Of a DNA stretch of 28,011 nucleotides, positions 1,105 to 22,156 are shown one piece after another (the first letter of the stretch is position 1; each line of letters starts with the position of its first letter). Location of the stretch: positions 1-28,011 of the IMG/VR virus record IMGVR_UViG_3300009431_000109; one strand, given 5' to 3'. The notes below the pieces were generated by a model, which was not told the DNA's origin, ran no database searches, and saw only the letters and a program-made list of their open reading frames with translations. Position numbers and translations under genes: made by a program. The DNA comes from a virus.

Positions 1105-3572
1105 GTCTTGATGATCCACTTGGCCCCGCCCCACGGGCCGCGGTTGTCCACCTCGTGCGATCCGTCCGGCTTGTCGATCGTGGGCGGGTTGCTTGTCCCG
1201 GTCCAGGTGGGCGAGCTGGTGTTCGTCGTCCAGTCCCAGCAGAAGGCGTCATACCCGCTGGTCACGCCGATGCAGGACGGACCGCCGTCGTAGGGTCCGT
1301 GGTAGTGGTCGAGATCGAGCGTCGCCACGCCGCCGGTGTTGCCGACGGTGCCAAATGTCGCATCCCCGCTTTTCCAGCCGCGGACGGTCCGTCCGCCGGT
1401 GTCGGGGACGTTGAATGTGGTGGATCCGTCGCCGACGCCCCATAGGGTTCCGATCGCGGTAAACAGGTCGGCGTAGGTTGTGCGGCTGACGGCGGCGCCG
1501 TCGCAGATCAACCATCCGGTGGGGACCGTGTTGCCGCCGTAGGGGCACATGGTGCCGGCGGCGAATCCCGCCGCGGCCGCCGGGGGGACCTGGCCGGCGA
1601 GGCGGGCCGGGTGGAAGGCGCCGGTCCGGCGGGCGGTCGGGACCGGGTCGCCCGGGCCGGCGGCGCCGCCGGATCCGGCGATCGACCGGTGGAGGCCGGC
1701 GAAGTCCAGCTCGGCGAAGTCCGTTTTCAGGGTCGTGGTGGCCTCGTCGAAGTCCCAGGTCACCTCGGAGATCACCGACTGGACCTCGAGGTCCTGGCCG
1801 TGGGCCGGCGTCATGAACGAGCCCAGGAGGGTCCCGATCATGTCCTGGTAGTCGAGGTTGGCCAGGGTCGCCTCGGCCCCGCGGCGGTCGCGGCCGTACC
1901 ACGCCTTGGCCATCGCGGCGATCGCCGTGAGCTGCGCCGCGTCGGTCCGGAGGGTCGCCGCGGCGGCCTCCTCGGTGCGGCTGCCGCCGGCGACGCCGAC
2001 CATCGTGTCGGCCAGGCGGTACCAGCACTGGGCCTCGGGGACGTCGATCGTCAGCGTCCCCCCCACGCCGTCGCCGATGTCGGCGGTCACCGCCAGGACC
2101 TCGTCGCTGTACCAGGCGACCGTGGCGTAGATCGTGTCGTAGTCGACGGCCGAGGCCTCGGGCCACTCGAACGACGCCCCGTCGGTGTAGTGGTTGCGGC
2201 CGAGCATGTAGTTGGGGTGGACGATCACGCGGATCCCGGGCTCGCCGTCGAGCGGGACGACGGTCATGTTCGGCCGGCGGTTGTCCGTCGTGGCGAGCTT
2301 GTCGATCGGTTCGTAGGTCGTGGATCCGCCGGGGTCGTTGTCGATCACGACCAGGGGCGAGCGGAAATCGTCCGGGGCGTCGGCGTCGTCGGCGGTCAAC
2401 CGGAGGGGGATCTGGGGGAGGAGTTGCTTTCCGTGGGCGAGGATCTTCGCCGGGCCGGCGGCGAGGGTCCCGTCGTCGTTGCACACCGGCCCGCCCGGGA
2501 GGGACGCGGGGGGGATCCGGTAGGCGGTAAAAACGGACTGGTATTTCTCGTCCTTGCGGTTCTGCTCGGTGGCGGCCTCGTAGGCGGTCTCCTGGGCCGC
2601 CGTCCAGGCCTCGTCGAGGGTCGCGTCGTCGAACGAGAACGTCCCGACCAGGAGGATCGGGGACCCGCGGACGACGACCTCGCTGTAGCGGACCGACTCG
2701 TCGGTGGTCAGCGTCACCCGGTCGTAGTTGGACCGCTCCAGGTCGATGATCGTCGCCGAGGCGGCCAGGGTGGTCGCCCCGACGGTCACGGCGTCGGCGA
2801 ACGCGCTGCAGATCTCGACCAGGACCGTGTTGTCGTTGTTGACCCCGACCCGCCAGGCGTGGCCCCGCTGGCGGGCGGCGACCGCGTCGAGCAGCGCCCC
2901 GACCGTCGGCATCGGCGCCACGGCCGAGGTAAAGGCCGCCAGGTTGGTCTCCAGGCCCGACAGGTCGGCCGCGAGGTCGCTGTCGGTGTACCAGGCCAGG
3001 GCGTACTCGGCGATGTCCTGGGCCGTCCAGGTCTCCCCATCGGCGCTGAAGATGTACGACGTCCGGCCGGACGGGGCGGCGTACTTCGTGGACGACCGGT
3101 TGCCCTGGACGGCCAGGCCCGCCGCGTGCGGGGTGTTGAACGTCAGGCGGCGGGTGATCGTCTGGGCGGCGGCCAGGAGCTCGACGACCGACCCGTCGAT
3201 CGGCGAGTGGTGGAGGATCCACGCCAGGTCGCGGGCCTGGAGGACCTGGACGCCGGTCGGCTCGGCCAGGTCGGCCATGCCCGGGGCGTCGGCGACGCCG
3301 GTGATCACGCCGTGCCAGATCGGCGTGATCGGCGGGCCGGGGTCGGCGATCCGGACGTAGTGGCCGACCAGGTCCAGAGGCGGCACGACCGCCCGGCCGG
3401 CCCCGTCGTTGTCGTCGATCTGGCCGTAGTGCCACCGGAGGGTCGCGGTGCCGATCGCCGGGGCGAGGATGGCGCGGACGGAGATCGGCTTGAGGTCCGG
3501 CCGGAGGATCCACTCGTCGGTCCAGTGTTCGCGGGTCTCGACGATCGGGCGCGTGACGGCGGCGGTGGTCAT
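1101..3572 (-). CDS. Tail hub/baseplate protein with C-terminal tail-collar domain (823 aa)
   Basis: The first about 620 residues look like a phage hub protein: an N-terminal beta domain (ISVRAILAPAIGTATLRWHYGQ), a middle with RDLAWILHHSPIDGSVV, and later EVQSVISEVTWDFDEATTTLKT. A Pro/Ala-rich linker (about 640-670) leads to a phage tail-collar domain (PF07484-like) at about 673-735: GTMCPYGG, PTGWLICDG, a helix, and STTFNVPDTGGRTVRGW. The end, NRGPWGGAKWIIKT, is typical of short tail fibres. Hub and receptor-binding parts appear fused into one chain. The stop overlaps the next gene as ATGA. Confidence 0.82.
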   Translation of the reverse strand: MTTAAVTRPIVETREHWTDEWILRPDLKPISVRAILAPAIGTATLRWHYGQIDDNDGAGRAVVPPLDLVGHYVRIADPGPPITPIWHGVITGVADAPGMADLAEPTGVQVLQARDLAWILHHSPIDGSVVELLAAAQTITRRLTFNTPHAAGLAVQGNRSSTKYAAPSGRTSYIFSADGETWTAQDIAEYALAWYTDSDLAADLSGLETNLAAFTSAVAPMPTVGALLDAVAARQRGHAWRVGVNNDNTVLVEICSAFADAVTVGATTLAASATIIDLERSNYDRVTLTTDESVRYSEVVVRGSPILLVGTFSFDDATLDEAWTAAQETAYEAATEQNRKDEKYQSVFTAYRIPPASLPGGPVCNDDGTLAAGPAKILAHGKQLLPQIPLRLTADDADAPDDFRSPLVVIDNDPGGSTTYEPIDKLATTDNRRPNMTVVPLDGEPGIRVIVHPNYMLGRNHYTDGASFEWPEASAVDYDTIYATVAWYSDEVLAVTADIGDGVGGTLTIDVPEAQCWYRLADTMVGVAGGSRTEEAAAATLRTDAAQLTAIAAMAKAWYGRDRRGAEATLANLDYQDMIGTLLGSFMTPAHGQDLEVQSVISEVTWDFDEATTTLKTDFAELDFAGLHRSIAGSGGAAGPGDPVPTARRTGAFHPARLAGQVPPAAAAGFAAGTMCPYGGNTVPTGWLICDGAAVSRTTYADLFTAIGTLWGVGDGSTTFNVPDTGGRTVRGWKSGDATFGTVGNTGGVATLDLDHYHGPYDGGPSCIGVTSGYDAFCWDWTTNTSSPTWTGTSNPPTIDKPDGSHEVDNRGPWGGAKWIIKT

Positions 3573-4312
3573 TACTGGACCTCCAGGAGGGTCGCGTCGG
3601 CGGGTTGCGTTTCTGCCGCGGCCTGGAATAGCGGCGCCGGCGTGCTGGCCAGGCGCCGGCGTGCTTTGGCGGCGAAATCTTCGTCGATCTCAATCCCGAT
3701 CCATCGGCGGCCGAGGCGCTTGGCGGCCTCGCATGTCGTCCCTACGCCGGCGAAGCAATCCAGGACGACGTCGCCCGGCCGGGTGTGCCACTGGATAAAG
3801 GCCGTCGCCAGGGCGACGGGCTTTTCGGTTGGATGCTGGTCGGCCCGGGGGATGATCTTCGGAATCCGTACCACGTTCGAGATCCGCCGGCCACCGTACC
3901 ACTTGCACGGCCCGCCGGGTTTCTCGCCGACTAAGACCGTCTCGTAGCTGCGCCGGTAGTGCCATCCCATCCCGAGGCCGCCCTTGTCCCATACGATCAT
4001 TTGCTTGAACCCGACCGCTTCGTCGAGCATGAGCGACCACCGCGCGAATTGTGGATCCGGGCCGTCATTGGCGATCGGCCTGGCGTCGGCTGCCGTGTTC
4101 TTTCCGCGGCCAAGCGCCTCCTCCCAGCGGTGGATCAGATCGCCGTTGTTGTTGTTGTGCCCGTAGGGCGGATCCGTGAATACCATATCGACCGCCCCGG
4201 CCGGTAGATCGGCCATGATGTCGAGGCAATCGCCGGTCAGGATGCACCCGTCGGAGCGGCCGGCGATCACGTCGTCAATCTGCACTCCGCAATCCGCAAT
4301 CCGCAATCCCAT
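3572..4312 (-). CDS. Second DNA methyltransferase, beta class (246 aa)
   Basis: An N4/N6-type DNA methyltransferase with catalytic TDPPY at residues 46-50 and AdoMet motif FAGVGTT at 187-193, in beta-class order. HPTEKP at 160-165 is a conserved family element. It shares RSDGCILTGD with the methyltransferase at 22773-23573, but the target-recognition region differs. It is inserted between two tail genes, overlapping each by one base (TGATG and TAATG), an unusual place for DNA modification. The first ten residues come from a GCGGATT repeat, so the original start may have been further in. It is probably an orphan methylase protecting phage DNA; specificity is unknown. Confidence 0.88.
   Translation of the reverse strand: MGLRIADCGVQIDDVIAGRSDGCILTGDCLDIMADLPAGAVDMVFTDPPYGHNNNNGDLIHRWEEALGRGKNTAADARPIANDGPDPQFARWSLMLDEAVGFKQMIVWDKGGLGMGWHYRRSYETVLVGEKPGGPCKWYGGRRISNVVRIPKIIPRADQHPTEKPVALATAFIQWHTRPGDVVLDCFAGVGTTCEAAKRLGRRWIGIEIDEDFAAKARRRLASTPAPLFQAAAETQPADATLLEVQ
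4282..4309. repeat. GCGGATT-type repeat at the methyltransferase N-terminus
   Basis: The minus strand reads GGATTGCGGATTGCGGATTG and then CGGAGTGC, beginning two bases after the start of the ATG. It encodes residues 2-10 of the methyltransferase (GLRIADCGV). The family is the same as at 10247-10344 and 13637-13670. Confidence 0.7.
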
Positions 4313-4680
4313 CACCCCGCCCCCTTGCGGATCCGCCAGGCGGTGTCGACGCGCCACTTGGCGGTCCCCTCGTGGATGCACGCGCGGGGGGTCGGGGCGA
4401 CGAACAGGATCGCGCAGTTGTCGTAGACCTCGCCGGTCGCGTCGGTGATCGAGACGGTGGCGCCCTGGAGGGCCTTGCACGCGGCGGCCTCGGCCCGGGC
4501 CGCGGCGGCGTCGGCGCAGAATGTCGTGGTCCCCATCGTCGACGGCGGGGCCTCGGTGCCGGTCAGGAGGTAGCGGTGGTGGTCCTCGCCCTTGGCCCGG
4601 GGGATCTCCTCGACCACCTCGCCGGCCAGGCCCGGCCGGCCGGTCATCACCGTGAACGTCCTGTCGCCGATCTGTCTCAT
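4312..4680 (-). CDS. Small tail-tip protein (122 aa)
   Basis: I do not recognise a family. The sequence is mixed alpha/beta: an opening strand pair (DRTFTVMTGRP), a charged loop, an Ala-rich helix (CADAAAARAEAAACKAL), and strands near the end (TAKWRVDTAWRIR). The position between tape measure and tail hub suits a distal-tail or hub-associated protein. The start is in an ATGA overlap with the tape measure gene, and the stop is shared with the methyltransferase start as TGATG (4310-4314). Confidence 0.65.
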   Translation of the reverse strand: MRQIGDRTFTVMTGRPGLAGEVVEEIPRAKGEDHHRYLLTGTEAPPSTMGTTTFCADAAAARAEAAACKALQGATVSITDATGEVYDNCAILFVAPTPRACIHEGTAKWRVDTAWRIRKGAG

Positions 4681-6077
4681 CGCTCACCGTGTGCGTTGTG
4701 GGCCGGGAGGCGATCGCTCGCCCGGCGGAAGTTCGTCGCGGCGGCGTTCATCTCGCGGGCCGTCGAGAGGTCCAGGGCCCGTTTCTGGGCCGACACGTCG
4801 GCCTCGCCGGCGGCCAGGTCGGCGTCGACGTCGCCGAAGCCGAGCGCGTTCTTGGCCTCGGCGAGGTTCTCGTAGGCCGACCGGAGGAACGGGTTGACGC
4901 CGGCGGTGCGGTACTGGTAGCCGCGGCGGGTCATCGTCGCCCCGCGGCGGCCGAGGTCCGAGTCGTACTCAGCGATCTCGGCCGCGGCGCGGTACTCCTC
5001 GTTGGCCATGTAGTTCCGCCAGGCCGGGTCGGCCATCGCCACCTCGCGATTGAGGCGGGCGTAGTCGCGGCCCTGGGCCAGGCGGATCCGCCGGGTGTGC
5101 TCGGCCGGGGTCAAGCCGCCGGCGCCGCCCATCATCGCCTCGACGGCCGCGGTCTGGGTCGTGAACAACTGCGCCCGCAGCGCCGGGTCGGCCTGGACCA
5201 TTCCGAGGCGCGCCGTCGCGTCGGCGGTGCCGTAGAACCGCCGCATCGCGATCTGGCCGGCGGTCTCCTTCCTGCCGAAGGCCGCCGGGGCGATCGTGCG
5301 CTGTTCGCCGAGTCGGCCGGCGAGGGCCTGGAGGGCCGAGGCGCCCTGTTCGGTCTGGACGCCGGCCAGGAGGTACCCGAGGGAGGTCTCGCCGCCGATG
5401 CCCAGGGCGCCCATCTGGCGGACGGCCTTGTACCCGCCGCGGGAGATCTTGCGGCCGTGGCGGCCCTGGGCGCCCATCACGTAGGCGGCGATGTCGTGGA
5501 CGTCGCCGGCGGTCGTCCCCGGCAGGAGGGCCCCGAGGGTCCCGAGCGCCGTCCCGACGTCCTCGGCCTCGCCGCCGTAGTACCCGGCCTTCTTGGCGGA
5601 GATCGCCTGGCCGTAAAGGCTCTTGATCCGGCCGAACTCGGCGGCGGGGGCCGCCCCGCGGATCGCCGAGTACATCTGGGCGCCCTCTTGGGGGGCGAGC
5701 GTCGTGCCCTCCTGGAAGATCATCCCGCGGACGCGCCCGGCGACGCCGAGGTCCCCGGCCCCGGCGATCGCCTTGGTGATCGAAACGGTGGCCTTGGCGG
5801 TCTGGGCCTCGAGGCGCTTGGCCTCGGCGATCTGGGCGGTGATCGCCTTGGTCGCCACGCCGATCGCCGCGGCGACGCCGCCCCACTTGAGGACCATCGA
5901 CTTGAGGTCCTTCGTCGCTCGCTTGCCGGCCCGGCCCATCGCCCCGTCCTGGGCCTTGGTCGCCCGCGTGGCCTTGCCGGTGGCCTTGGTCACCTTGTTC
6001 TGGGCGTCGACGACCTTGAGAAACGCGCCGACGGCCTTGGCCGATTCGGCGTCGAGCTTGAAGTTTACCGTTCCCAT
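4677..6077 (-). CDS. Tape measure protein (466 aa)
   Basis: The rod that sets tail length and is ejected ahead of the DNA. It is mostly helical, with repeated Lys/Ala/Thr-rich segments near the N-terminus (QNKVTKATGKATRATKAQ), a hydrophobic stretch at about 65-80 (WGGVAAAIGVATKAI), and many Ala/Gly/Arg helices to the end. It is the largest helical protein in the tail module and follows the chaperone position. At 466 residues it is short for the type; at about 0.15 nm per residue the tail would be roughly 70 nm. GGAAA precedes the start at 6077. The stop overlaps the next gene as ATGA. Confidence 0.8.
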   Translation of the reverse strand: MGTVNFKLDAESAKAVGAFLKVVDAQNKVTKATGKATRATKAQDGAMGRAGKRATKDLKSMVLKWGGVAAAIGVATKAITAQIAEAKRLEAQTAKATVSITKAIAGAGDLGVAGRVRGMIFQEGTTLAPQEGAQMYSAIRGAAPAAEFGRIKSLYGQAISAKKAGYYGGEAEDVGTALGTLGALLPGTTAGDVHDIAAYVMGAQGRHGRKISRGGYKAVRQMGALGIGGETSLGYLLAGVQTEQGASALQALAGRLGEQRTIAPAAFGRKETAGQIAMRRFYGTADATARLGMVQADPALRAQLFTTQTAAVEAMMGGAGGLTPAEHTRRIRLAQGRDYARLNREVAMADPAWRNYMANEEYRAAAEIAEYDSDLGRRGATMTRRGYQYRTAGVNPFLRSAYENLAEAKNALGFGDVDADLAAGEADVSAQKRALDLSTAREMNAAATNFRRASDRLPAHNAHGER

Positions 6078-6096
6078 CGTTTTTCCGTTTACCTGG

Positions 6097-6969
6097 TCAC
6101 GTCGTCAAGGATGGCGATCTCGCCTCGGGTCGGGACGTAGGACCGGGGCAGGAGGCCGGCGATCCAGAGTCGGGCGTTTCGGGTTTTTCGGCTGGGGCTG
6201 TCGTGGTCGCCGGGTGTCCGCTCGGCCTCTCGTTGTCGGCCTCGGCGATCACCGGCGCGTTTTTTTTTGCGTGGGCGAGCCACGTCGGCCAGTCGACGAA
6301 GGCCTCGAGGACCGCCGGGACGTTGGTCGTCGTCAGGATCCGCAGCGCCGAGGCCTCGGCCGCGGCGATCCGGTAGTTGATCGCCAGGATCGCGACGGCG
6401 AGCTCGAACGCCTCGAGGTCGTCCAGGACCGTCGGCCGCTCCGGGTCCGCCGGGGCGCCGTGGGCGGTGCATATCGCGTCCCAGATCCGGTCGGCCATGC
6501 GCGACGCGGCGGCGAACCGCGGCAGGACCTCGCCGACCAGGGACCCGTCGGGGCCGATCGCCAGGGCGGACGGCAGGGCCACGGCGCCGGGGAATACGCG
6601 GGCGACCGGGACGATCCACTCGCGGCCGTCGCCGAGGACGATTCGCGGCCCGGCGATGATCTCGGCGCGGGCCAGGTCGTCCGGACCGGGGGGCGGGCCC
6701 TCGGCGGGCAGGCCCAGAAACACGCCGGCGCGGCCGGGGATCGGCGTCCAGGCCTGGTCGTCGGGCCAGTAGCCGAGGTCGGCGCCGGGGCCGCCGGCGG
6801 CGACGACGATGCCGCCGCGGCGGTCCGGGCCCGGGCCGGCGATCGACTCCCGGCATGAGGTAGGCCCGCCGGCCGGGGGATCGGTCAGGACCGAATCGAG
6901 GCCGGCGTCGGTGAGGGTCTGGGCCGTCGCGGCCCGGGCGTTTTCGATGAAGTAGAGGAAGCGCGGCAC
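6097..6969 (-). CDS. Tail-assembly-chaperone-position protein with frameshift site (290 aa, frame 0)
   Basis: The gene starts with GTG at 6969, with GGAGG nine bases upstream. It sits directly before the tape measure, where siphoviruses encode the tail assembly chaperones. The first part is Gly/Pro/Asp-rich. The helical segment LDDLEAFELAVAILAINYRI and then NVPAVLEAFVDWPTWLAHAKK is likely the folded core. A run of nine A follows (6260-6268); after it the zero frame becomes Pro/Ser/Thr-rich and loses coding bias, while the -1 frame gains it and ends at 6089. Production of two proteins, as lambda G and GT, is proposed. A sequencing error in the A-run is the main alternative. Confidence 0.7.
   Translation of the reverse strand: MPRFLYFIENARAATAQTLTDAGLDSVLTDPPAGGPTSCRESIAGPGPDRRGGIVVAAGGPGADLGYWPDDQAWTPIPGRAGVFLGLPAEGPPPGPDDLARAEIIAGPRIVLGDGREWIVPVARVFPGAVALPSALAIGPDGSLVGEVLPRFAAASRMADRIWDAICTAHGAPADPERPTVLDDLEAFELAVAILAINYRIAAAEASALRILTTTNVPAVLEAFVDWPTWLAHAKKNAPVIAEADNERPSGHPATTTAPAEKPETPDSGSPASCPGPTSRPEARSPSLTT
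6259..6268 (-). other. Slippery sequence for -1 frameshifting (A AAA AAC within nine A)
   Basis: In the zero frame the codons are GCA AAA AAA AAC, which contains the efficient heptamer A AAA AAC (and A AAA AAA) in the correct phase. A -1 slip leads to a product of about 293 residues ending at 6089, eleven bases before the tape measure ATG. Downstream, CGCCGGTG and CACCCGGCG could pair with one bulge as a stimulatory stem. Confidence 0.6.
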
Positions 6970-6971
6970 GG

Positions 6972-7406
6972 TCAGGCCTCCAGGTCGCGCTCGATCTCGG
7001 CGCAGGCGATGCGGGCGGCGTCGGTGTTGGGGAACCGCCGGCCGGCGAACCGGCACGATCCCCGCTGGCCGGTGTAGGTCGCCACGCACCCGCTGACCGG
7101 GGCCGGCCGGACGGTGTAGATCCGGCCCGGGACCTTTGGGCTCGCCGCCGTCCACGTCGCCCCGTTGGCGGTCCAGGTCAGGTTTTTGGATGGGGCGTCC
7201 TCGGCCGGGGGCCGGGCGCTCGGCCTGGCGCTGTCGGCCTCGACGGGCGGCGGGGTCGGGTTCTCGGCCGGCTCGACCGGCTCGGCGGCGGCCTGGGCCG
7301 CGTCGGCCGCGGCGTCGCATCGGGCGACGTGGCGGTCGAATCCGCGCTTGGACTTGTACGGTTTCCCGCATCCGGGGCATTTTCGGACCGTTTTATGTCT
7401 CGCCAT
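6972..7406 (-). CDS. C2HC zinc-finger protein in the tail module (144 aa)
   Basis: Residues 10-30 hold a classical finger pattern: Cys-x2-Cys, 12 residues, His-x3-Cys (CPGCGKPYKSKRGFDRHVARC minus one residue either side). A long Ala/Pro/Glu linker follows (about 31-75), then a compact beta-like domain with three Cys (GCVATYTGQRGSCRFAGRRF) and a helix (DAARIACAEIERDLEA). GGAGA precedes the ATG. A finger protein among tail genes suggests regulation or host-directed DNA/RNA binding rather than a virion role, though the C-terminal domain could be structural. Zinc fingers of this type are less common in phages than ribbon types. Confidence 0.7.
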   Translation of the reverse strand: MARHKTVRKCPGCGKPYKSKRGFDRHVARCDAAADAAQAAAEPVEPAENPTPPPVEADSARPSARPPAEDAPSKNLTWTANGATWTAASPKVPGRIYTVRPAPVSGCVATYTGQRGSCRFAGRRFPNTDAARIACAEIERDLEA

Positions 7407-14548: not shown

Positions 14549-16702
14549 TCAGGCGGTCGACTGGACCATCCCGTCGCGGTCGGCGGCGGCCACGCCGTAG
14601 TCGAGGTACACGCGGAAGCCCTCGGCCAGGGTGTCGCCGGCCGCGGCGACCGGCTCGACGGTGGGCGTCTGGACCCCGTCGAGGAACCCGACGCGGATGT
14701 TGGCGCACTCGGCCGGGTTGGCGAACAGGTACCACGTCGTGGCGCTGGTCAGGCGCGGGTCGGTGAACGGGGCGATGGATCCGTCGCCGTAGCCGTGCTT
14801 GCCGTGCTGGGTCGCCGCGGCGGCCCCCACGCCGATGACGACGATGTCCGGGCTCGAGCAGATCGCCCGGGCGGTCCCGAGCAGGGCGATCGGGGCCAGG
14901 AGCGTCTTGGGCATCAGGTGACGCGGCTGGCTCTTGGAGTCCAGCTGGCCCATCATCAGGGTCGCCGCCGAGTCGACCGTCGCGATCGCCAGGGCGCTGG
15001 ATTCCTGGAGGGTCTCGGTGGCGGTGGCGAAGATCGCCGTCCCGTCGGCCATCGCGGCGTTAGCCTCGAGCAGGGTGTACACGACGGTCGAGACGTCGTT
15101 CATGGCCCCGAGGCCCAGGAGGCGCGGGGCGTCGGTCAGGATGTCGATCCGGTCGTCGATGATGTGCTGACGGCTGATGTACAACACCTTGCCGCGCGTG
15201 ACGCCGGTGATCTCCTCGCCGCTGTCGTCGAGGCTGACCGCCGAGAGCTTGCCGTCGTCGCCGACCTCGGTCAGGCCGCCGGCGATGTCGAGCTTGACCA
15301 TCTTCTCGGCCTGGAACCCGCGGAGGGGTCCGACCGAGCAGAACTGGCGCCACGTCTGCTGGGCCGACAGGGCGCCCTGGATGGACGTCACGCCGGCAAC
15401 GTTGGTGACGATGTTGGCCAGGGAGGCCGTGCCGATCCCGGCGCGGTACAGGTCGGAGCGGTTGTCGGGGATCGCCCGGCCCTCGAGGCGCAGGGCGTGG
15501 CGGAACACGTCCTCGAGGCGCAGGCCGCGGAGGGACCGCTCGGCGGTGTGGAGGGTCTGCTCGTCGTAGCCGCGAGTCATCGCGAAGTCGCCGGCGTTGG
15601 CGCGGATCAGGATCCCGGCCTCGACGGTGCGCCTCGCCGCCTCGTCGGCGGCCGGGGCCACGTGGACCGCCGGGAGGCCGGTGACGGGCGGGCGGGCGGC
15701 GCGGAGGACCTCGGCGAACCGGGCGCGGGCGGCGTCGAGGGTGACCGCCGGGTCGCCGATCGCCGCGTCGCGGGTCGCCTCGTCGACGCCGGCGATCCGG
15801 GCCAGCTCGGTGATCTCTCGGGCGCGGGCGGCCGCCGCGTCGGCATCGCGGGCGTCGAGGATGTCGTTGACGTCGTCGCGGGTCAGGGCGACCGGCGGGT
15901 CGGCCGGCGGGGCGGCGTCGGCCGTGGCGCGGGCCTCGGCGGCCTCGAAGTCGGCCGTCAGGGCGGTTCGCTGGTCGTCGGTGAGGTCGTCGGGGTCGAA
16001 ACCTCGGGCTCGGATGTAGTCGTTCAGGTTCATGGTGGCGGTGTCCTTTCGTTGGGGGGTCGCGGGGGCGGTGCGGTGGGTGGCGGTGTGGTGCGGCGGG
16101 CGATCGTCGTCCGCGCGGTTGGTCGCGTTGGGGTCGGCGCCGATCGGGCAGACGGAGTTTTCGTGGATCGTCCAGGACGTCGCGATTCGCAGCGGGCGGC
16201 CGTTGTCGGCGGCGGTGAACTTGCGCCCCTTGACCGTGGCGGTCTGGCCCGGGTCGATGTAGACGGCGCCCTCGACGCGGTAGCCGATCGAGTTGTCCGT
16301 CAGGTGGCCGCCCTGGATCAGGGACCATGCGGTCTCGCCTCGCTCGGTCTCGGCGAACGTGTTGACGCCGATCAGCTTGTCGCCCTCGACGCGGATCTCG
16401 CGGGTGGATCCGATCTGCTGGTCGATCGACCAGCGGCCGTGGGCGTCCAGGAGGGGGATCTGGCGCGAGTCGGGGATCTCGACGCCGGCCATCAGGAGGA
16501 TCTCGTCGACCCGCTCGTAGCGCGTCCAGTCGTAGACCGTTACCGGGGCCTCGGTGGCGATGACGGCCTCGACGGTGCGGGCCTCGACGTCGAGGCTCTC
16601 GGCGCGGGTGACGTAGGCGCGGACGGTGAGGCGATCGGCGTCGGTGGCCGCCGGCGGGGCGTTTCTCGTCTGGATCGGGCTCGGTCTATGCGGCGGCTGC
16701 AT
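14549..16702 (-). CDS. Prohead protease-major capsid protein fusion with internal start (717 aa)
   Basis: Residues about 25-200 are an HK97-type prohead protease (U35): His88 in LLDAHGRWS, Ser138 in HLTDNSIGYRV, and the conserved ENSVCPIGADPNA. Residues 224-390 are helical and charged, like a scaffold/delta domain. The rest is the capsid fold, ending with WYLFANPAECANIRVGFLDG and GFRVYLDYGVAA. Met224 (start at 16033) has the same CGAAAGGAC ribosome site used elsewhere, so a separate 494-residue scaffold-capsid protein is probably made in excess, with the full fusion as a minor product. Protease-capsid fusions are known in phages. The ATG at 16702 is served by GGAG inside the portal repeat. 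Confidence 0.88.
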   Translation of the reverse strand: MQPPHRPSPIQTRNAPPAATDADRLTVRAYVTRAESLDVEARTVEAVIATEAPVTVYDWTRYERVDEILLMAGVEIPDSRQIPLLDAHGRWSIDQQIGSTREIRVEGDKLIGVNTFAETERGETAWSLIQGGHLTDNSIGYRVEGAVYIDPGQTATVKGRKFTAADNGRPLRIATSWTIHENSVCPIGADPNATNRADDDRPPHHTATHRTAPATPQRKDTATMNLNDYIRARGFDPDDLTDDQRTALTADFEAAEARATADAAPPADPPVALTRDDVNDILDARDADAAAARAREITELARIAGVDEATRDAAIGDPAVTLDAARARFAEVLRAARPPVTGLPAVHVAPAADEAARRTVEAGILIRANAGDFAMTRGYDEQTLHTAERSLRGLRLEDVFRHALRLEGRAIPDNRSDLYRAGIGTASLANIVTNVAGVTSIQGALSAQQTWRQFCSVGPLRGFQAEKMVKLDIAGGLTEVGDDGKLSAVSLDDSGEEITGVTRGKVLYISRQHIIDDRIDILTDAPRLLGLGAMNDVSTVVYTLLEANAAMADGTAIFATATETLQESSALAIATVDSAATLMMGQLDSKSQPRHLMPKTLLAPIALLGTARAICSSPDIVVIGVGAAAATQHGKHGYGDGSIAPFTDPRLTSATTWYLFANPAECANIRVGFLDGVQTPTVEPVAAAGDTLAEGFRVYLDYGVAAADRDGMVQSTA
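16033..16052 (-). promoter_or_regulatory. Internal ribosome-binding site of the capsid part
   Basis: On the minus strand CGAAAGGAC lies about ten bases before an in-frame ATG at 16033 (Met224 of the fusion). The same motif precedes the genes starting at 8018, 14396, 18477 and 27614. The codons before it encode a His/Thr/Pro-rich linker, consistent with a domain border. Confidence 0.65.
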
Positions 16703-20558: not shown

Positions 20559-20993
20559 TCACGGTCTCGGGGTCGGGAAGTTTGTCATCCAGGACCACGA
20601 CGTCATCCGGTCGACGATCTTGGTCAGCGTCTCGATATGGGCCTGGAGGGCGGCGACCAGGCGGTCGTCGGGCGCGGCGATCGCCTCGAGGACCTCGCCC
20701 ACCTGGGGCGTCGGCGGGCCTATCACCGGACCGAGGGCGCCGAGGTGGTGGAGGTCGGCGGCGAGGGTCTCGGCCTGGGCCTGCGTGAGGACCACCGCGG
20801 CGGGAGTTTCCTCGCCATCGGACACGTTGACGAAGCCGGGGCGCTCGAGTCCCGCGGAACCCACGATAAGGGCCCGCGTCATGTCGTCGACGTCGGCTTC
20901 GTCGCGGGTGGATAGGATGTGGAGGCAGTAGCGCGACGGGTCGAACCGCTTGGAGGCCCGGACGTCGAGGCCGCTGGGGGCGTGGTTGCTCAT
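20559..20993 (-). CDS. Hypothetical protein of the packaging module (144 aa)
   Basis: I do not recognise this protein. The start at 20993 has a good ribosome site (AAAGGA) and overlaps the preceding stop as ATGA. A longer open frame continues upstream but is only the shadow of the kinase fusion. The first 60 residues look globular (CLHILSTRDEADVDD). A helical segment at about 68-90 (LTQAQAETLAADLHHLGAL) and another near 108-130 could form a coiled coil or dimer. It ends about 65 bases before the zinc-ribbon gene; that gap carries a short repeat. Confidence 0.65.
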   Translation of the reverse strand: MSNHAPSGLDVRASKRFDPSRYCLHILSTRDEADVDDMTRALIVGSAGLERPGFVNVSDGEETPAAVVLTQAQAETLAADLHHLGALGPVIGPPTPQVGEVLEAIAAPDDRLVAALQAHIETLTKIVDRMTSWSWMTNFPTPRP

Positions 20994-22156
20994 GATCGTT
21001 TTTCCTTTCGCTTGGCCGTCTTGGTCGCGGCCGTTTTCTTGGGTGCCGTTTTTCGTTTGGCGGTTTGTCGTTTGGCCGTTTTGGCCGCGGGGGTCTTGGC
21101 CGTCTTGCGGGTGCGTTTGGGGCGTTTGACCTTGCGGCGGAGGCGGGCGATCTCGTCGCCGGCCAGGCGGACCAGGTCGGCGTCGGTCAGGTGCGGGTCG
21201 TCGGTCAACGCCAGGGGCTCGATCACGTCCTCGATCGACCGGACGATCGCCGCGAGGTGCTCGGACTCGATCGCCCGCCGCTCGGCCGGCGTTGTTTGGG
21301 CCGGGCCGTCGCCGTCGGCGGCCGGATCGGCCCCGGCGGGGACCTCGCCCACCGGGCCGAGGCCGAGGAGGCGGTTTTTCTCGCGCTGGGCGGCCAGGGC
21401 GGTCTTGACGTCCTGGATCCGGAGGGACCGCGAGTACAGGTCGTCCAGGCGGGTGATCGACTCGCCGAGGGCCGCCGGGGCGCTGTACTCGGCGGCCCGG
21501 GCGATCCGCCGGTGGGCCTCGGCGATCGCCGCGGCGGCCGCCGGGCCGTCGAGGCCGAGCTTTTCGCCGGCGGTGGCCAGGATCCGCGACGGGCGGAGGC
21601 CCGAGACGATCAGGAGGACGATCTGGTCGACGGTCTGCTCGGCCGCGGCGGCCGCGTCGCCGGCGGCGGGCTCGGCGGGCCCGGCGGCGGGGGCCGCCGC
21701 GGCGCCGTCGGTCCGGACGATCTCGAGGGCGCCGGCCTCGGCGGCCGTCGGGGCCACCAGGTCGTCGAAGTACCGCGCGACGGCCCGCTCGGCGGCCCGG
21801 GGCTGGAGCGGGTGGCCCTTGCGGGCCCGGATCCGGGCGAGGCAGACGTCCGAGGGGGTCGGGACGTAGAGGATCCGCGTGGCGTACCCGGCGGCCCGGG
21901 CGGCGGCGAGGATCTTCTTGCGCTGGGCCTGGCGGGGGTTGGTCCGGTCGATCACGATCACCGGCGGTTTCTGGTCGCCGGCCAGGGCGGCCTTGACCGC
22001 GGCCAGGAACCCGCGGAAGTCCGACGGCGTCTCGGGGTCGTCGGGGCAAAGGATCGGGGCGCCGCCGTACCGGTCGGCGGCGAGGGTGCTCTTGCCGGAC
22101 CCGGGCGGGCCGACCAGGAGGACCATCTCGCGTTTTGTGGCCTGGGGGTCCGTCAT
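20990..22156 (-). CDS. P-loop polynucleotide-kinase-like domain fused to a small-terminase-like domain (388 aa)
   Basis: Three parts are visible. Residues 1-150 form a P-loop kinase: Walker A GPPGSGKST at 16-24, then VIVIDRTN (66-73) and a basic segment with RIRARKGHP, the pattern of AAA_33/T4-Pnk-like kinases that phosphorylate 5' hydroxyl ends. Residues about 174-266 resemble small terminase subunits: a helix-turn-helix-like segment (SGLRPSRILATAGEKLGL) and then long helices ending REKNRLLGL. Residues 341-388 are a Lys/Ala/Thr-rich histone H1-like tail, probably binding DNA. An Ala/Pro-rich linker (about 151-172) separates the first two. No other TerS candidate lies near TerL, which supports the assignment. 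The kinase activity and packaging role are inferences. Start and stop are both ATGA overlaps. Confidence 0.72.
   Translation of the reverse strand: MTDPQATKREMVLLVGPPGSGKSTLAADRYGGAPILCPDDPETPSDFRGFLAAVKAALAGDQKPPVIVIDRTNPRQAQRKKILAAARAAGYATRILYVPTPSDVCLARIRARKGHPLQPRAAERAVARYFDDLVAPTAAEAGALEIVRTDGAAAAPAAGPAEPAAGDAAAAAEQTVDQIVLLIVSGLRPSRILATAGEKLGLDGPAAAAAIAEAHRRIARAAEYSAPAALGESITRLDDLYSRSLRIQDVKTALAAQREKNRLLGLGPVGEVPAGADPAADGDGPAQTTPAERRAIESEHLAAIVRSIEDVIEPLALTDDPHLTDADLVRLAGDEIARLRRKVKRPKRTRKTAKTPAAKTAKRQTAKRKTAPKKTAATKTAKRKEKRS

Follow-up and report, generated by a model that had tools for sequence, protein, structure and literature searches.

The window analysed here, a 28,011-nucleotide stretch of virus record IMGVR_UViG_3300009431_000109, belongs to a tailed phage and carries genes for an integrase, a terminase, a portal, a protease–capsid fusion and a tail collar fibre. 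On its minus strand, a gene lying just before a tape-measure-like gene contains a run of nine adenines (A9) near its 3′ end, beyond which the −1 frame stays open (Table 1). Some other genes of the window deserve mention. The 717-aa protein encoded at 14549-16702 consists of a protease fused to the major capsid protein, and stretches identical to its gene occur in two other metagenome records (L012 and L013), which represent the same phage as the window and do not reach the slip site. The interval between terminase and portal holds a P-loop kinase-like gene with weak similarity to Zeta toxins (20990-22156), and an N4/N6 DNA methyltransferase gene (3572-4687) lies inside the tail module, overlapping the tape measure gene at the latter's end.

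Table 1. Features at the chaperone locus, in coordinates of the window
Feature	Position	Strand	Details and basis
Probable ribosome-binding site of the chaperone gene, GGAGG	6977-6981	minus	upstream of the GTG at 6969
Frame-0 product, G-like, 290 aa	6097..6969	minus	GTG start; open reading frame and homologues in 18 further lineages
Slip site, A9	6260-6268	minus	frame-0 phase GCA AAA AAA AAC
−1-frame extension, predicted T-like, 56 codons	6089..6259	minus	open frame, GC3 and codon usage, profile of relatives
Candidate hairpin just 3′ of the run, putative stimulator	6208..6257	minus	−26.3 kcal/mol; z −3.2, computed with the A9 run included
Conserved extension core, RLWIAGLLPRSYVPTRGEIAILD	6104..6172	minus	alignment of 16 extensions
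Tape-measure-like gene, 466 aa	4677..6077	minus	11 nt past the chaperone gene; BFVD matches

The A9 tract is the sole A/T run of at least seven nucleotides in the window, which is 71% GC, and an A/T run of length nine appeared in none of 100 dinucleotide shuffles of the window. A first-pass annotation made from the letters of the window had described this run and its phase, a −1 frame open to position 6089 and a passage of third-position G/C bias from frame 0 to the −1 frame, and we verified all of these. The frame-0 stop codon lies at 6099-6097 and the −1-frame stop, TAA, at 6091-6089. Frame 0 keeps a high GC3 over the first 13 or so codons past the run, after which the −1 frame is highest, and codon-usage log-odds along the gene agree with this switch. 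In the window (6089-6258) and its sister lineage L002 (L002:6690-6836), the frame-0 tails (53 and 45 aa, respectively) almost equal the −1 extension in length, so that some 150 nt serve two frames; the frame-0 tails of other relatives are far shorter, at 1-26 aa. Pairwise pN/pS between the window and L002 did not separate the frames in this overlap (0.52 for the −1 frame and 0.61 for frame 0).

We found that the −1 extension is conserved in sequence. A profile of the relatives’ −1 extensions, built without the window and without L002, recovered the window extension with an E value of 5.5e-7; the runner-up among 457 six-frame segments had an E value of 0.48. Alignment of 16 extensions revealed a common motif, W..GL.P.Y.PT..(D/E)...L. 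The extension had been thought shorter than usual, at about 55 residues, and this view was not borne out: its 56 codons compare with 32-65 codons in relatives and about 57 in P2 E+E′, going by the site annotated there. No ATG, GTG or TTG occurs before the last three codons of the extension in the window, and the same is true of L002, which indicates that the extension, if made, would be a fusion to the frame-0 protein.

An AF2 model of the frame-0 product (pLDDT 90.3, pTM 0.88) has a chaperone-like fold. In a Foldseek search of the predicted viral structures of BFVD, the top-ranked and only significant match was a tail assembly chaperone (A0A6J5LCU1; E 3.6e-4, probability 1.00, TMt 0.51), and the second match, which was not significant, was another tail assembly chaperone. 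Comparison of the model with solved structures (PDB, VIA-align) gave weak matches only (best Foldseek E 0.34, Z 2.8), which does not speak against a known fold. Searches of Pfam and PHROG with 12 chaperones of the family yielded no convincing match, which likewise is no argument against a chaperone, and the family adds to those that lie outside the convincing reach of these collections. The gene had also been described as the immediate predecessor of the tape measure gene, and its neighbour fits this description: the model of the 466-aa product is all-helical, of low confidence and matched in BFVD mostly by tape measure proteins. This product had no match in PHROG or Pfam, and the tape measure candidates of ten relatives matched no tape measure family in PHROG.

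Because homologues, the leave-out profile, the fold and the gene position agree, we conclude that the gene very probably encodes a two-product tail assembly chaperone resembling lambda G/GT. To that extent the first-pass proposal of a −1 frameshifted chaperone stands; the ribosomal slippage on A AAA AAC that formed part of it is not established. As in lambda G/GT, HK97 gp13/gp14 and P2 E/E+E′, the gene immediately or closely precedes that of the tape measure, and the slip would occur near its 3′ end and give a short C-terminal −1 extension. There is no sequence family match between the window family and the lambda, HK97 or P2 chaperones.

Homologues of the chaperone were found in 18 further lineages, all from uncultured virus contigs, with identities to the window protein that are mostly 24-36% (67-68% for L002). 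Named phages gave no match in tblastn searches with the chaperones of the window, L007 and L017, the genome contigs scanned gave none either, and an exact scan of viral contigs found no second copy of the window site. The extension is present in 17 of the 19 lineages, always in the −1 frame. At the slip site, 15 of the 19 have A9 (n=13) or A10 (n=2) at the same place, and none has A7 or A8; the sixteenth A-type site is an A6, in L003, and L023 has a G5 (G GGG GAG). L040 and L041/L042 have neither run nor extension, the tape measure gene following at once, which indicates that run and extension go together. Comparison of homologues, which had been put forward as a check on the slip site and on both reading frames, therefore bears out the conservation of run length and extension, but the codon phase of the run varies and two lineages have lost both features.

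All three codon phases are represented. The A9/A10 run is in phase 2 in the window, L002 and L009, in phase 1 in L004, L019, L020, L021, L022, L025, L030 and L032, and in phase 0 in L007, L017, L035 and L056. On the protein tree the phases are interspersed, and the sisters L020 and L035 differ in phase while both retaining A9. No further A/T run of at least nine nucleotides was present in the 126.7 kb checked. A run-length simulation from codon usage predicted that 0.84 of 15 runs would reach nine if an A AAA AAN in frame were the sole requirement, compared with 14 of 15 seen. The resulting P value, about 1e-19, treats the lineages as independent and is overstated because they are not. L056, which was found after the idea of transcriptional slippage had formed, likewise has A9.

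Conservation of length without conservation of phase fits slippage by RNA polymerase, and we lean towards polymerase slippage at A9 as the main source of the shift. Under this model, most expression would proceed by reading through in frame 0 to give the 290-aa G-like chaperone. In a minority, a shift into the −1 frame at A9 would produce a fusion with the conserved, T-like tip of about 30 aa, which, by analogy with lambda GT, may join the tape measure to the tail-tube protein. RNA polymerase would slip on the run and leave a fraction of mRNAs with an extra A (A10), on which ribosomes would read directly into the −1 frame. Thermus dnaX offers an example of transcriptional slippage at A9, and in many bacteria A/T runs come under negative selection from a length of about 9 nt (PMC1088944). 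Ribosome sliding, by comparison, requires about A11 and is slight at A9-A10 (PMC4363877). Some facts count against a shift at the level of transcription: in E. coli, slippage by RNA polymerase is more frequent on runs of T than on runs of A (PMC6260861); the window itself has canonical heptamers in frame, A AAA AAC among them; and whatever its phase, an A9 run includes A AAA AAA or A AAA AAC.

The foremost alternative is a programmed ribosomal −1 shift at A AAA AAC or at the A AAA AAA that overlaps it, with the extra adenines serving only as a boost; we regard it as a serious contender, albeit a somewhat unlikely one. Ribosomal shifting is the documented mode at this gene position, one of the two heptamers is in frame in every A-type relative, including all A9 lineages, and the hairpin in the window is strong. 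Longer A-runs may raise the ribosomal shift rate, and the low shift rates that such genes need could be met by ribosomes alone. Within the same family, moreover, the sites of L003 and L023 look ribosomal: L003, the lone A6 lineage, combines a minimal A AAA AAC with a Shine–Dalgarno (SD)-like GAGG at −11 and a GC stem (L003:6714-6770), and the G GGG GAG of L023 resembles GGGGGAA, a motif that PRFect reported. However, a heptamer needs far less than the 9-10 A that nearly all A-type sites (15 of 16) keep despite the change of phase. The heptamer A AAA AAG is used at none of the A9/A10 sites; in E. coli this heptamer (A_AA.A_AA.G) is among the best, and A_AA.A_AA.C is of low efficiency (PMC4066793).

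The stimulators of a ribosomal shift may also tell against this alternative, as neither SD-like sites nor hairpins are clearly conserved among relatives. SD-like sites occur in 8 of 16 lineages, compared with 5.1 expected, and no consistent hairpin was found in relatives, whose z scores scatter about zero. The stem that the first-pass annotation had offered as a candidate is indeed strong in the window, but it begins about 1 nt past the heptamer rather than at the usual spacing of 5-8 nt, and it lacks clear conservation among relatives. Taken together, these observations lead us to slightly favour transcriptional slippage over ribosomal slippage. The family may also be mixed, with polymerase slippage at the A9/A10 sites and ribosomal shifting in at least one member (L003, A6), which would make it a phage counterpart of dnaX, where transcriptional slippage in some homologous genes and translational slippage in others lead to the same pair of products; we consider the arguments for and against such a mixture to be evenly balanced.

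Two other readings are highly improbable. In the first, the extension would be made separately by termination and reinitiation, not fused to the frame-0 protein. The frame-0 stop of L007, L009, L019, L022 and L032 does overlap or adjoin a −1-frame ATG, which might there yield a separate T-like peptide, but the window and L002 extensions have no start codon at which this could occur ahead of their last three codons, and reinitiation leaves the conserved run unexplained. In the second, the run would reflect DNA-level phase variation or an assembly error in a gene that is truly one continuous frame; replication and sequencing both tend to err at homopolymers, but we rejected both possibilities because near-identical contig pairs from different records (L004/L005, L025/L031 and L032/L033) all keep A9, the extension is in frame with frame 0 in none of the 19 lineages, and the A10 lineages still have it in the −1 frame.

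The G/GT frameshift is among the best conserved recoding events of tailed phages and is discussed as ribosomal. In the papers covered here, each tail-chaperone case has been put down to ribosomal frameshifting or left open. Known sites of the lambda, HK97 and P2 type are short ribosomal heptamers, whereas the sites described here are A9 or A10 runs whose length is kept and whose phase is not. Our control on known chaperone slip sites covered HK97 and P2: the HK97 region has no run of at least six A, and the P2 slip site has T6 instead of a long A-run. In its long homopolymer the window family resembles Thermus dnaX, Shigella mxiE and spa13, Citrobacter tssM (A11) and IS elements, and, like these transcriptional-slippage genes, it would have two products per gene and has no clear ribosomal stimulators. 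By contrast, none of the transcriptional-slippage cases covered here is a phage tail chaperone. Our search of the open-access literature, outside which most subscription papers lie, turned up no tail chaperone reported to use transcriptional slippage; this absence is weak evidence of novelty.

If polymerase slippage is indeed the source of the shift, the host RNA polymerase would set the ratio of the two products, per mRNA instead of per ribosome, and tools that seek ribosomal heptamers would describe the wrong signal. With its A9/A10, A6, G5 and lost sites, the family is also a natural collection in which to study why each type evolves. Among the lineages that lack the A-run, L040 has a C7 in the frame-0 phase GCC CCC CCT, a C CCC CCT heptamer that was not seen in L041/L042 (L040:4380-4500); past this C7, the −1 frame of L040 is open into the frame of the tape measure gene.
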